Shown here piece by piece: positions 7,588 through 13,848 of a stretch of 64,000 nucleotides of DNA. The notes under the pieces were generated by a model. The model searched no databases. It was not told the origin of the DNA and saw only the letters and a list, made by a program, of their open reading frames with translations. A program made the translations under genes and the position numbers. Numbering within the stretch: the stretch's first letter is position 1; the number at the start of each line of letters is the position of its first letter. The stretch is from Saccharothrix obliqua (GTDB lineage Bacteria > Actinomycetota > Actinomycetes > Mycobacteriales > Pseudonocardiaceae). Where the stretch lies: the NCBI RefSeq assembly GCF_019375475.1, contig NZ_JAHXGQ010000001.1, forward strand, positions 620,001-684,000, in the 5' to 3' direction.

Positions 7588-7752
7588 GGCCCCGATCCGC
7601 CGCACGAACCCCCGCCAGCTCACCTCAGCCACGCTCAGCACGGGGCCGTGGGGGTTCTTGGAGTCCCGAACCGCGATGGAGTCGGCTACGTGTCGGACTT
7701 CCACGCAGTTGGCCTGGCTGCTGCTGTAGCTGCTCTTGCGCCATGTGTTCAT
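7585..7752 (-). CDS. DUF397 protein, copy 4 of the array
   Basis: A 55-residue DUF397 protein starting MNTWRKSSYSSSQANCVEVR, ATG 7752. Conserved features are W-R/H-K-SS-S/Y-S at the N-terminus, ANCVEV, the VAVRDSKNPHGPVL core and a terminal W-R-F-R tail. The start overlaps the previous stop as ATGA. It is the last of four tandem copies. DUF397 proteins are found next to Scr1-type HTH regulators in actinomycetes and have been proposed to form toxin-antitoxin-like or developmental (Bld/Whi-type) pairs. The molecular role is unknown. Confidence 0.85.
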   Translation of the reverse strand: MNTWRKSSYSSSQANCVEVRHVADSIAVRDSKNPHGPVLSVAEVSWRGFVRRIGA

Positions 7753-7904
7753 CGCGCGAACCTTCGCCAGTTGACCTTGGGCACGGTCAGGACGGGACCG
7801 TGGGGGTTCTTGGAGTCGCGTACCGCGACGGAGTCGGCGACGTGTCGGACTTCCACGCAGTTCGCCTGACTGGTGCTGTGGCTGCTCTTGTGCCATGCGC
7901 TCAT
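7749..7904 (-). CDS. DUF397 protein, copy 3 of the array
   Basis: 51 residues: ATG 7904, stop TGA 7751-7749. The sequence starts MSAWHKSSHSTSQANCVEVR and ends VPKVNWRRFAR. It overlaps its neighbours by 4 bases on both sides, so translation is probably coupled. It differs from copy 4 mainly at positions 4-12 and in the tail. It was read directly from the nucleotide sequence. Confidence 0.85.
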   Translation of the reverse strand: MSAWHKSSHSTSQANCVEVRHVADSVAVRDSKNPHGPVLTVPKVNWRRFAR

Positions 7905-8056
7905 CGGAGGAACCTCCGCCAGCTCACCGCAGTCACGTTCAGCACGGGGCCGTGGGGGTTCTTGGAGTCCCGTACCGCGATGGAGCCCGTCGTGCGTCGG
8001 ACCTCCACGCAGTTGGCCTGGTCGCTACTGTGGCTGCTCTTGCGCCAAGCGTTCAC
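7901..8056 (-). CDS. DUF397 protein, copy 2 of the array
   Basis: 51 residues: GTG 8056, stop TGA 7903-7901. The sequence starts VNAWRKSSHSSDQANCVEVR, continues RTTGSIAVRDSKNPHGPVL and ends VSWRRFLR. Four-base overlaps join it to the copies before (GTGA) and after (ATGA). It is the most divergent in the middle (RTTGS for HVADS or HLAGA). Confidence 0.85.
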   Translation of the reverse strand: MNAWRKSSHSSDQANCVEVRRTTGSIAVRDSKNPHGPVLNVTAVSWRRFLR

Positions 8057-8205
8057 CGCGTGAACCCCCGCCAGTTGACCTTGGGCACGATCAGGACGGG
8101 ACCGTGGGGGTTCTTGGAGTCCCGAACGGCGACCGCGCCGGCCAGGTGTCGGACTTCCACGCAGTTGGCCTGGTCGGTGCTGTAGCTGCTCTTGCGCCAG
8201 GACAT
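8053..8205 (-). CDS. DUF397 protein, copy 1 of the array
   Basis: 50 residues: ATG 8205, stop TGA 8055-8053. The sequence starts MSWRKSSYSTDQANCVEVRH and ends KVNWRGFTR. A ribosome site (GAGGAGCGG) precedes the ATG. It lies 17 bases after the Scr1-type regulator gene and is the first of the four DUF397 genes, so the set probably forms one transcript with the regulator. Confidence 0.85.
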   Translation of the reverse strand: MSWRKSSYSTDQANCVEVRHLAGAVAVRDSKNPHGPVLIVPKVNWRGFTR

Positions 8206-8222: not shown

Positions 8223-9059
8223 TCAGGTCACCTTGCCGATCAGCTTGGCGATCAGCGCCGCGGACTCATCGGGCGAGAGCGCCAAGGCACACAGCCTGTG
8301 CCAGGCAAGCGTAGCGCTTTCCAGGAAGTCGTCTTCCTCCAAGAAGGTGCTGCTGTTGCGACTTTCGACGTAAACCAGTGATGGTTGGTCGCTGAATTCC
8401 AGCATCATGAACGGGCCACTCAGTCCCGGGTGCGCCGGGCCGTCGAATGGGACCACCTGCACGATGATCCTCGGTCGTTGCGCCATGGCGGCGAGGTGTT
8501 GCAGCTGGGACCGCATCATTTCGGGGTTGCCCAGGTGCCGCCGGAGGACCGGTTCGTCGATGACCAGGTGCACACCGGCCCGGGTGAGGGCGACCTGCCT
8601 GCCCATCCGAGTCGCCACCAGCGCTTCGACCTCTGCGGCGTCGAGGGTGTCGTTGACCCCGCGCATCACCGTCGCGGCGTACTCCGCCGTCTGCGCCAGG
8701 CCCGGGATCACCAGCGGCTCGTAGTTGTGGATGCCGATCGCCTCCGCCTCGAAGTCGATCAGGTTCTTCCAGTTGCCAGGCAGCTTGCCGTGGATCGTGT
8801 GCCAGTTCCGGGTCTCTCCCGCCCGCACCAGGGCGACCAGTTCTTGCCGCAACCCGGCAGGCGCCTGGAGGAAGCCGAGTATCGCCGCCACCTCGTCCGC
8901 GTACAAACCCCGGTTCGCGGTTTCCATGCGGCTGATCTTGCTCTCTGAACACCCGATCGCCGCGGCCACCTCCGCGCAGCTCAAACCCCTCGCCAAGCGC
9001 AACGCGCGCAATTCCGTGGACACCCGGCGCTGGCGCACGGAAGCTCCCCTGCGTGTCAT
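8223..9059 (-). CDS. Scr1-type helix-turn-helix regulator (XRE family, DUF5753 C-terminal domain)
   Basis: 278 residues, ATG 9059. The N-terminal XRE helix-turn-helix is ELRALRLARGLSCAEVAAAIGCSESKISRMETANRG. The rest is the domain typical of Scr1 regulators: LIDFEAEA...IHNYEPLVIPGLAQTAEYA, VATRMGRQ, HLVIDEPVLRRHLG, MMRSQLQHLA and VPFDGPAHPGLSGPFMMLEF. Such regulators are regularly encoded directly upstream of DUF397 proteins and act as antitoxin-like or signalling partners. Here one regulator serves four DUF397 genes. It diverges from the small ORF at 9156. Confidence 0.9.
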   Translation of the reverse strand: MTRRGASVRQRRVSTELRALRLARGLSCAEVAAAIGCSESKISRMETANRGLYADEVAAILGFLQAPAGLRQELVALVRAGETRNWHTIHGKLPGNWKNLIDFEAEAIGIHNYEPLVIPGLAQTAEYAATVMRGVNDTLDAAEVEALVATRMGRQVALTRAGVHLVIDEPVLRRHLGNPEMMRSQLQHLAAMAQRPRIIVQVVPFDGPAHPGLSGPFMMLEFSDQPSLVYVESRNSSTFLEEDDFLESATLAWHRLCALALSPDESAALIAKLIGKVT

Positions 9060-9349: not shown

Positions 9350-12300
9350 TCACCGGCGGATCGGCAACGGCTCCCGGATCGCGAGCCGGCGGATCTCCGG
9401 GTAGTACGGGTCCAGCTCACCCATCTCGAACCGGCAGTCCCGCACCATCCAGAACACGTCCTTGCTCCGCCCGCTCGGACACTTGTAAGAACCATCCGGC
9501 AGCAACGCCACATGGCCGTCCTCGTCGGCCACGAAAGTCACCAGCTCCACCCCGTCACGCGAATGCCACAGCCGAGCCGTCCGGTCCTCACCTCCGGTCG
9601 CGAGGTACCGGCCATCCAGCGAAAACGCCACCGCGCGCACCGCACCCGTGTGCCGCACAAGGCTGTGCAACAGGTTCCCGCTCGCATCCCACACGCGCGC
9701 CACGCCGTCCGACGACGCCGTGGCGATCCGTCCATCCGACGCGATGGCCACGTCCCACACGGCGCGCCCGACGGAAATCTCCCCGAGCTGCACGCCATCC
9801 ACCGACCACAACAACACGTGGCCGTCCAAGGAGCCGGTGGCGACGATCCGCCCGTCCCGCGAGAACGCCACGGACACGATGTCGGACAGGTGGTTGACGA
9901 GTTCCCGATCAACCCCACGGCGCCATATCCGCGCCACGCCGCCCTCATGGCCGACAACGATGCGTGAGCCGTCGGGGGAGTAGGCGACGCACGTGGCAGC
10001 CCGGGTGCTGCTCGGCTGGAGTCCCGATTGTTGGTCCGGACTGTTCGTGTTCCAGAACAACAACCCACCGGTGTCCGTCACCCCAACGACTCGGCGGCCA
10101 CGCGGCGCGAACGCCACCGACCGCACCCGGACACCGGTGTCGAAGGTGATGTCCTCCTCCCCGGGCGCCTCCAGGTACGCGCCGGCGTTGCTGCTCACCG
10201 CCAACGCGCCGTCCTCGGCCAGGTCGGCCGCCTCGATCCGGCCGGGGAAGATGTGGTGCTCGTCGACCACCCCGTCACCGATGTCCCACAACCGCACCCC
10301 GGTCTCCGACGCCACCATCAACCGCCGACCGTCCGCCGTGAACCGCACGGCGACCACCGCCGAGTAGGTCAACGGCGTCGTCAGCACTGCCAGGAAGCGC
10401 TCGCTGTCCGTGCGCTCGTCCTGCCGGATGACGACCCGCGCCCGGTCCCGCGTGCTGGACGCCGCGGCGGCCAGCTCCGGCCGGTCCGCACCCGTCACAC
10501 CGAGCAGCGCGGCGCCCTCCCACCGGCTGCCGGTGAGGACCGCGTCGGTGAGGCTGCCGCCGAACACCCGCACCCCGCGGCAATCCGCGCCGGTCAGGTC
10601 CGCGTCGCCGAGGTCCATCCCCACCAGGCGCTGCCCGCTGAGGTCCGCGCCCGCCAGGTTCGCGCCACGCAGGTTCAACGCACCGAGGTCCGCACCACGC
10701 AGGTCGACGCCTTCCAGGCCGAGCACCTGCCTCCGCAACCGGGTCGCGACCGCGGTGGCGTTCTGCTTCGCCGCGTCGCCCGCGTCGTCGGCCGCCAGCA
10801 CCGCCCGCGCCCACGCCAGCGCGGCGTCGTGACCCGCCAGGTCGCAGAAGAAGTCGACCATCAGCCTGGACATCCGGCGGTCCGCGACGACGACCTCGTC
10901 CCGCCCGGCACGCAGGTCGTCCGCCGCGACCTTCGCGACCAGCCACTCCACCACCGACTGGTGCACGAACGCGAAACCCTCGTCGGTGCGCACCAGCAGC
11001 GTCCCCGACCCGACGGCGTGCGCGGCCTGGTCGATGGTGTAGCCGCGGTCGGCGAGCCTGGTCAGCCGCGACACCACGGCGTCGGTGAGGTCGCCGGTCT
11101 GCACGGTGGTCGCGGTCGTCTGCCACAGGCGCAACGCCAGCGCGGTGCACGCCGCCAGCCGTTCCGCGCCGTCGAACGACGGCGTGCCGAGCCGGTGCTG
11201 CTGCCGGTCGGCCTCGTGCACCAGCCAGAAGTCCACCAGCTCCCGGTACAGCTCGGCCGCGCTGATCCGGCCGTGCTCGCGGCGGATCTCCAGCAGCCGG
11301 TCCTCGTCCAGGTCGGCGATGAACGACAGCATCCGCGGGTTGCGGGACAGCCCCAGCAGGTCGCTGATCACGCCGAGCAACGCGAAGCGCCGCGTCGCCC
11401 GGCCCGGGTCGCCGTAGTGGCGGGTCAGGAAGTCCACGATCTGGTCGTCGCCGAAGTCCTCCAGCACCACGCCCCGGCTCGCGGACAACGCCGACACCCG
11501 CTGCCCCAGCGCGGTCAGCACCTGGTTGGTGGACCGGAAGTGCTGGGTGCGGCTGGTCAGCACGACCTTCGCCCGGTCGGTGACGGCCTGGAGCAGCGTG
11601 CCGAGGTAGTCGGCGGCGTTGTCGTAGCCGACGCGCAGCTCCAGCTCGTCGAAGCCGTCGAACAACAACGCCAGCCGCCCGCTGCTGATCATGTACCGGA
11701 GCTTGGTCACGTCCACCGCGTCGACGCCCTCGCGCACCAGGTGCTGCGCCAGCAGCTCGTCCAGCGACGGCGCCTTCTCCAACCGGCGCAGCTCCACCAG
11801 CACCGGCAGCAGGCCGGGCAGGTGCTCGGGCAGCACGCGCGTCAACTGCCGCAGCAGGAACGACTTGCCGCGCCCGAAGTCGCCCAGCACCACGACGAAC
11901 CGGGCCTGCTCGCGGCCGAGCGCGTCGATGACGTGCGCCAGGACGTCGTCCGCCACCTCCGCCGCTCCGAGCACCGTGAACCGTTGCGGGACGTAGAGTT
12001 CCGCCGGGTACACGCGGTCCGATGCGAGCGCACGCGCCTGACGCTCGACCAGCGGTCGCAGGTCCACCAAGCCCTGGTACTCCACGAAGCTCCGCAGTCG
12101 GACACCTCGGCGTTGCGCGAAGAGCGTCACTTCCGGTTCGGCGGGCGGTCCGCTGTAGACGAGTTCGGACGGCACCGAGGGATCGGCCGCCGCGAACGCC
12201 TCGTGCACCCGCGTGACGAACTGACGGACGTCATCGGTGGTCACGGGCCCCGAAGCCACACCCACGGGCCACTGCTCGAAACCACCGCCCACGCGGGGTT

Positions 12301-13819
12301 TCGACACGCGCAGGTACCACTCGTCGGGCCGTGGCGTGATGGTCGCCGTCGGGTGGGACACGGTTGTCGCCTCGTGCACGCGCTCGAAGAACGTGCCGCG
12401 CAACGACGGCGACCGGTCCACCAGCATCCGGTTGACCGAGCCGAACGCGACCTGCGCCGACTCCCACTCGACCGCGATGTCCTCCGTCCCGGCCGTCACC
12501 CACCCGTCGCGGAACCGGCGCACGGTGCGGCCGATCTCCATGGGGCGCAACGAGAGCAACTGGTACGTGCCCTCGGTGACGGGCAGCAGCGGCACGCCGC
12601 CGGGCAGCCGGCCCGCGTCGCCCGGACCCGTCAGGCACAGGCTCAGGCGGTCGCGCTCGCCGAACCGGTGGTCGGCCACCCAGCGGTGCACCGCGCCCAG
12701 CCGCAGCCACCCGCGCAGCCGGTAGTCCCGCAGCAGCGCCAGGAACCGGGTGGTCTGCCGCTCGCCGAGGTGCGCGCCCGAGTCCCGGTGGCTGTCGTGG
12801 AACGTGGAGTTGAACCCGGCCACCACCACCGCCAGGTCCGGCACCTCGAACAACGACCACGGCTCGTCCGGCGTGAACGTCGCCCGGCCCTGGTAGAACT
12901 CGTCGAACGCCGCCGCGTACGGGCCCCACTTCGGCCAGTACGGCGGCACCGGCGCCCGTTCCAGCGCCTCCTCCTGCGCGAAGTACGCCTGGCACGCCAA
13001 CCGGTTCACGTCCCGCGTGCCCGGCACCACCACGACCCGGTCGCGCGGCAGCTCCACCGCCTCCGCCAGGTGCGCGAGGAACCGGAACCCGCGTTCGAAC
13101 CCGCTCGGCCGGCCGTCCTCGGTCAGGTCGCCGGTGAACACCACGAGGTCCGGGCGCTCGTCGGCGAGCGAGTCGTGCAGCGGCCCGAACCAGCGCTCGT
13201 CCGGGCCGAACCGCACCGATGCCACGTGCAGCGCGGTGATCGCGTCGGCCCGGCGCGTCGGGCGCGGCCACACCGCGCGCAACCGCTCGGCCGGGATCGC
13301 CTGCCCGGCCGCCGTGACGACGCCCACGACCCGGTCGGTGGCCGGGTCCCACACCGGTCCGCCGAGGTAGCCGGGTCCGGTGCCCGTCGGGCCGACGTCG
13401 AGCCGCACCAGGCGTTCGTCCTCCTCGCCGTGCACGACCGCACGCACCCGTGCGCCGTCCGGCCGGTCGTAGAGGAAGCCGAACACCTCCACCGGGTGTC
13501 CCGGCCGCGGTGGCGTGGCGACCAGCTTCACGGGCGTCGCGGCAGGTGGCAGGTCCAGCGCCAGGACGCACACGTCGTCGCCGGGGAGCCCCGGCGGCGT
13601 CCAGGTGTGGACGGTCGCCGTGACGACTTCCCTCGCGAAACGCACGCGCACCGGCCCGTCCGGGCGTTCCACCGCACGGGCGTCTCGACCCAGTGCGACG
13701 TTGACGACGTGTGAGGGGGTGATGACGCGCGTAGGGCTCATCACGACACCCACGCCCACCGTGTGCCCCGCGCTGTCCGTGAACCGCACGACGGAGGTCG
13801 ATAAGGAGCCGGCGGGCAT
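9350..13819 (-). CDS. Trypsin-like / phosphoesterase-like / NACHT / pentapeptide / WD40 fusion protein, front domains degenerate
   Basis: 1489 residues counted from ATG 13819; ATG 13837 is in frame but would leave only 11 bases before divergent upp. Order: trypsin-like fold 1-190 (His37 in TPSHVV, Asp81/82 in DDVCVLAL, but GYLGGP where active enzymes have GDSGGP, so Leu152 replaces Ser). Calcineurin-like phosphoesterase fold 195-410 follows: HVASVRFG for H-x-SDLHFG, GDLTEDG kept, VPGTRDV for PGNHDV, TGPGDA for HGHTH, so most metal ligands are lost. NACHT/STAND NTPase has P-loop GDFGRGKS near 646-653 and Walker [10 protein letters not shown] near 716. Pentapeptide repeats span about 1037-1090 and WD40 repeats about 1140-1430. 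A sensor or conflict protein is inferred. Confidence 0.88.
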
Positions 13820-13848
13820 CGCTAACTGGTACCACATACTGTTCGGCC

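Follow-up and report, generated by a model that had tools for sequence, protein, structure and literature searches.

A NACHT protein of the NA-iREase3 subfamily beside upp in Saccharothrix obliqua whose trypsin-like front domain lacks its nucleophile

What can a large NACHT protein still do when the enzyme folds at its front appear to have lost their catalytic residues? The question is raised by one gene (Table 1) in the window, by which we mean the whole stretch of 64,000 nucleotides of Saccharothrix obliqua that was analysed. The reading that we favor, and hold to be fairly probable, is that its product is a protease-dead, immune-type STAND/NACHT switch of the NA-iREase3 subfamily, which acts, if it acts at all, by binding or assembly. 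About two thirds of this confidence belongs to the anatomy and history of the protein and about one third to a continued non-proteolytic function. By its domain composition the protein would be of an immune type, with a putative anti-phage role.

Table 1. Positions in the window of the gene, the domains it encodes and the adjoining spacer.
Feature	Position	Strand	Remarks
Whole gene, 1,489 aa	9350..13819	-	open reading frame
HtrA/V8-like trypsin-fold domain, residues 1-186	13262..13819	-	Ser nucleophile position 152 is Leu
Codon 152, CTC (Leu)	13364..13366	-	
Calcineurin-like phosphoesterase (MPE) fold without metal set, residues 192-465	12425..13246	-	
NA-iREase3 (PF22739), NACHT-associated inactive restriction endonuclease, residues 475-587	12059..12397	-	Pfam 3e-39; inactivity from the family name
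NACHT NTPase, residues 640-801, Walker A GDFGRGKS and Walker B LLFDGFDE	11417..11902	-	Pfam 1.3e-10
Pentapeptide repeats, residues 1053-1091	10547..10663	-	Pfam
Single WD40 propeller, residues 1157-1428	9536..10351	-	six blades by HMM, seventh by eye
Divergent spacer, gene to upp, 29 bases	13820..13848	.	start codon to start codon

The order of the domains in the window protein is trypsin-like, calcineurin-like phosphoesterase (MPE), NA-iREase3, NACHT, pentapeptide and one WD40 propeller, and most trypsin-type relatives begin at an aligned MPxGSLPxS start. The preliminary description had named all of these modules but one; those that it named are there, and NA-iREase3, between MPE and NACHT, was overlooked. 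Measured against the curated Pfam cut-offs, NA-iREase3 reaches 134.8 bits (cut-off 27) and NACHT 41.8 bits (cut-off 26.7), the latter with Walker A and Walker B both present. The motifs quoted earlier (GDFGRGKS, LLFDGFDE, GYLGGP, HVASVRFG, PGTRDV and TGPGDA) are all found in the frame, and those of the NTPase are intact, as had been said. An AlphaFold model of residues 1-635 (16 sequences in the alignment; mean pLDDT 76.7, pTM 0.62) matches HtrA-type proteases over residues 1-186, which have a chymotrypsin-like fold, and 9a6c_B over residues 192-465; the list of structural matches (VIA-align) consists mostly of protease rows with one MPE row, and its silence on other folds is uninformative. 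The sequence shows the front half of the protein to be a stack of three enzyme folds, of which the MPE and the restriction fold form a constant core with NACHT. The restriction fold is called inactive here after the name of its Pfam family.

Is the protease at the very front dead? Proteases of the V8 and HtrA types are matched by the profile of this region, and their triad falls on H37, D82 and position 152; the window protein keeps H37 and D82 and has Leu at 152. Activity through another nucleophile, or a Ser hidden by a shifted alignment, would be in keeping with the retained His and Asp, but the flank GY-GGPVWD aligns free of gaps with 15 relatives and the codon at the position itself is one for Leu; we regard a protease that still works as very improbable. 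The Ser (GxSG) is present in all 15 full-frame trypsin-type relatives, with the codon AGC each time, from which CTC is at least two base changes away. Of the 46 Pfam families matched by the window protein, the best 25 do not include Trypsin_2, which is found in L040 at 6.6e-17.

The change in this domain goes well beyond one residue. Over 16 sequences, with three fragments left out, we take the columns that are invariant in the 15 others and ask which of them the window protein breaks privately: for the trypsin domain these are 14 of 53 columns, against one of 48 in the MPE, none of 29 in iREase3, one of 177 in NACHT and one of 16 in the stretch that follows. The contrast of 14/53 with 3/270 for the rest gives a Fisher p of about 1e-9, in a test that treats columns as independent and singles out the trypsin domain because of the reported loss of Ser. 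The next highest private count for this domain among the 16 is 2/41, and within the near clade of seven sequences the window protein breaks 30 of 101 columns against at most 5/76 in the others. On a fixed topology the terminal branch of the window protein, compared with that of its sister, is 0.560 against 0.202 for trypsin; it is also longer for iREase3 (0.244 against 0.134) and nearly equal for NACHT (0.155 and 0.132) and the MPE (0.225 and 0.254). The tree place of the protein differs between analyses, as sister of three relatives in a 75-row tree and of L041 in the fixed-topology tree. By NG86 the trypsin domain has a dN of 0.30 and a dS of 0.55, the latter probably saturated, against the nearest relative (G021), while the dN between G021 and G007 is 0.15; dN is alike for both pairs in the MPE and NACHT, and is 0.14 and 0.10, respectively, in iREase3. 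With the private breaks concentrated in the trypsin domain and few elsewhere, this domain has lost its nucleophile and much conserved sequence in the lineage of the window protein, and proteolysis with them, whereas purifying selection has continued to act on the core.

The MPE behind the protease has another history. An active calcineurin-like phosphoesterase carries the motifs D-x-H, GD, GNHD, a single H and GHxH as its metal-binding and catalytic set. The profile of the MPE region matches Rv0805 and SbcD/Mre11-type enzymes, and in the alignment with Rv0805 all that the window protein retains of it is the D in GD and a single His further on. With Leu at 152 and this incomplete metal set, the earlier statement that both modules are without their catalytic residues is borne out. 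The metal set is also incomplete in 61 of the 63 aligned MPE rows, the window protein included, with D-x-H in none, D-x-Q in two, the N-H of GNHD in four, GHxH in three and the D of GD in 41 (the rows include L155, with motif I masked, and L158, with its 5' end missing, both without GHxH). A near-complete set is found only in L168, where a TIR domain precedes the near-intact MPE, and in L163, where nothing recognised does; nothing is recognised ahead of the degenerate MPE of L039 either. A scan of genome contigs with the first 490 residues adds a single locus, in a distant MAG, and its MPE is degenerate too. These motif counts, together with what precedes the MPE in L163 and L168, indicate that the metal site has been lost widely and independently of trypsin, and this loss appears to be old and family-wide. 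Since members with TIR and members with trypsin both have a degenerate MPE, it looks like an inherited non-catalytic part, and 48 of its columns are still invariant when the 15 other trypsin-type sequences are compared. The preliminary description took the two losses as one development, and this is not supported: the loss of the protease is private among full-frame relatives. Whether close relatives lack the same residues has a divided answer, in that they share the defect of the MPE and all 15 full-frame ones keep the Ser.

Dead folds may nevertheless be put to use, and one can picture, as the preliminary description proposed, the protease and phosphoesterase folds as decoys or sensors that would bind phage inhibitors or substrates. 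Prediction confidence for the trypsin fold is good (pLDDT blocks of 81-93 across residues 11-130), and there is a precedent in the MoxR-vWA ternary conflict systems, where inactive trypsins in effector position are proposed to be dominant-negative regulators or peptide-binding domains, according to the part of the source available (PMC7159879). The window protein resembles them in having a dead trypsin at that place; it differs, as far as that part of the source goes, in having another core, and nearly all of their effector-position trypsins are said to be dead (PMC7159879), whereas here all 15 full-frame relatives keep the Ser. Against a decoy, the trypsin domain gives no sign of diversifying selection by NG86 (dN is below dS, with dS probably saturated), its private changes are not significantly clustered along the chain around the residues of the active site (Fisher p 0.34-0.53), and a degenerate MPE is common to the family. 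The evolution of the domain appears relaxed rather than demonstrably diversifying, and we consider a decoy improbable.

We turn to the wider family to see what else the core can carry. NA-iREase3 occurs in 29 of 249 sampled family genomes and in 37 of 394 sampled class genomes. At the family level 18 loci were fetched (L105 is without a core frame, and two weak rows are left out); at the class level there are 61 rows, of which one is the window, and 40 of the 60 others were fetched. Of the 76 core frames mapped, 50 have a TIR domain ahead of the core according to a local HMM built from two sequences, to which Pfam adds TIR_2 in L157, and the Glu of the TIR motif, which is catalytic, is kept in 48 of the 50. 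Some TIR members have no MPE, and one has SEFIR and TIR. Since the same core carries TIR in other relatives, the N-terminus is a swappable effector slot; the outermost position is exchangeable, trypsin-like in the genus and TIR in most other mapped relatives. In most members the outermost enzyme is intact, in contrast to the MPE that follows it; the exceptions are the window protein, L039 and L168. Among the matches listed for the 249 family genomes, none from outside the genus spans the full model of the trypsin-MPE-iREase3 set (positions 1-639). The restriction of this set to the genus, in samples of 249 family genomes and 40 of 60 class rows, favors an arrival of trypsin there; the direction of the exchange between TIR and trypsin is not fixed by the tree, a midpoint-rooted FastTree tree of 75 rows without the short frames L057 and L104. 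That STAND NTPase cores exchange their effector domains, with trypsin, TIR and calcineurin among those exchanged, is stated in the available part of PMC8195603.

As a separate observation, nothing in Pfam matches at E 0.001 the roughly 600 residues ahead of NA-iREase3 in L152 (540-2759), which may be an unrecognised effector.

Is the gene, then, simply on its way out? The sample of the genus is 25 genomes, that of the window included. Thirteen hold a full-frame trypsin-type protein, two of them (G011 and G012) with a second, tandem copy, which makes 15 frames; a TIR version lies elsewhere in the genome in G013 and G017. Among 18 loci compared, blocks on both flanks are common with the window in 15 and on one flank in L047, and two TIR loci share none; the gene thus appears to be inherited at a fixed chromosomal site. 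At this site beside upp it is broken or absent in 11 of the 25 genomes, so that loss is common in the genus and early decay becomes the main rival to a switch that has lost only its protease: the protease would have died, a propeller would have been deleted, and the remainder would not have decayed yet. Fragments in three genomes, the absence of any copy within the 18-kb locus around upp in eight, and remnants of the start of the gene, visible by eye at some emptied sites, all fit such a course. So does the fragment of G017, which has lost the Ser too (it is kept in those of G004 and G016).

The sensor end also bears on this point. The 13 full-length trypsin-type relatives have 9 to 14 WD40 blades by HMM (14 in eight of them) over about 560 aa, and the span in the window protein, about 270 aa, is roughly half of theirs, which would fit decay. 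What is missing amounts to about one whole propeller, though, and the C-terminal tail common to the protein and its relatives is kept, which argues against it. At the rate of the trypsin domain, with 26% of invariant columns broken, decay of the whole gene since the loss of the Ser predicts about 47 of 177 broken columns in NACHT, where one is observed; the 1489 codons run without a stop or frameshift, which is weak evidence at this G+C. We consider an early pseudogene rather unlikely and keep to the protease-dead switch as the better reading. Beside full-length copies, the tandem extra copies at L048 (10729-14256) and L049 (5775-8942) keep the Ser and have one and no WD40 blade, respectively.

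How does this protein compare with known systems? The bNACHT proteins combine C-terminal sensing, oligomerisation by NACHT and an N-terminal effector (PMC12169576), and the window protein has the layout of these anti-phage proteins; in the available part of that paper the effector of their members is an active nuclease or cannot be made out, whereas here there are three enzyme folds ahead of the NACHT, none apparently active. AVAST type 1 resembles it at the front: its STAND-fused trypsin-like protease (Avs1b) has such a domain at the N-terminus too and, in the part of PMC12799240 available, cleaves and activates a partner pro-nuclease. The Avs1b model gives the window protein 14.9 bits against a cut-off of 1500, the Ser is gone, the direct neighbors are the divergent upp upstream and an XRE-DUF5753 gene, and no partner effector or nuclease is recognised among the ten neighboring ORFs scanned at the window; we do not assign the protein to AVAST type 1. 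PADLOC returns weak matches only. The NCBIfam model of the DS-9 phosphoesterase matches residues 221-286 of the window protein at 4e-8 (32.5 bits, cut-off 420), in a domain whose metal set is lost. The near-intact MPE of L163 (3122-7228, minus strand) is matched by the same anti-phage model at 2e-29, with 102.8 bits, also under the cut-off. Within our partial coverage of the literature, no paper was recognised as describing this architecture, none was found with an old and a private loss contrasted in one chain or with domain-limited relaxation, and none holds both "inactive restriction endonuclease" and NACHT.

By analogy with such systems, the relatives probably activate their protease on assembly: the propellers would sense a target, the proteins would assemble through NACHT, and crowding would then switch on the protease. 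The window protein would still sense and assemble, but any action of it would have to be non-proteolytic: it may bind or sequester a partner, recruit another effector or damp related assemblies. Selection on the core argues for some remaining role, and conservation is what a continued function without the protease is drawn from. Other frames with a trypsin domain, one of them 1,572 aa long, are present in the genome, so that protease help in trans is possible. A broader idea, which we offer as no better than tentative, is that NA-iREase3 NACHTs are built by effector stacking, in which a live enzyme is added or swapped at the N-terminus and older ones turn structural, and that the window protein is a switch left without any enzyme, which would work by binding or would help or restrain other assemblies. 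The layout would then be one of a swappable live effector on fossil enzymes as a fixed core, and the window protein would go one step past its relatives in that its outermost effector is dead too. The case separates, domain by domain, which parts of an NLR-like protein selection still sees once the enzyme is lost, and the genus offers natural variants for testing the layout, since at a single chromosomal site its genomes have the gene intact, protease-dead, in fragments or not at all.

The surroundings of the gene have features of their own. Among 17 trypsin-type loci, the window included, 13 have a spacer to upp of 29 bases, two one of 31 bases and two one of about 470-530 bases. Twelve of the 13 spacers of 29 bases, that of the window among them, have the same core, AACAGTATGTGGTAC, which suggests overlapping promoters; the core may be kept for upp. 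At L042 and L049 an ORF, presumably oxidoreductase-like, lies in the gap downstream of the gene. Downstream of the XRE-DUF5753 gene (8223-9059), the window holds about four tandem 152-base repeats (7601-8199), each a small ORF that we take to be DUF397-like, and their copy number, from DNA matches judged by eye, seems to vary among relatives.
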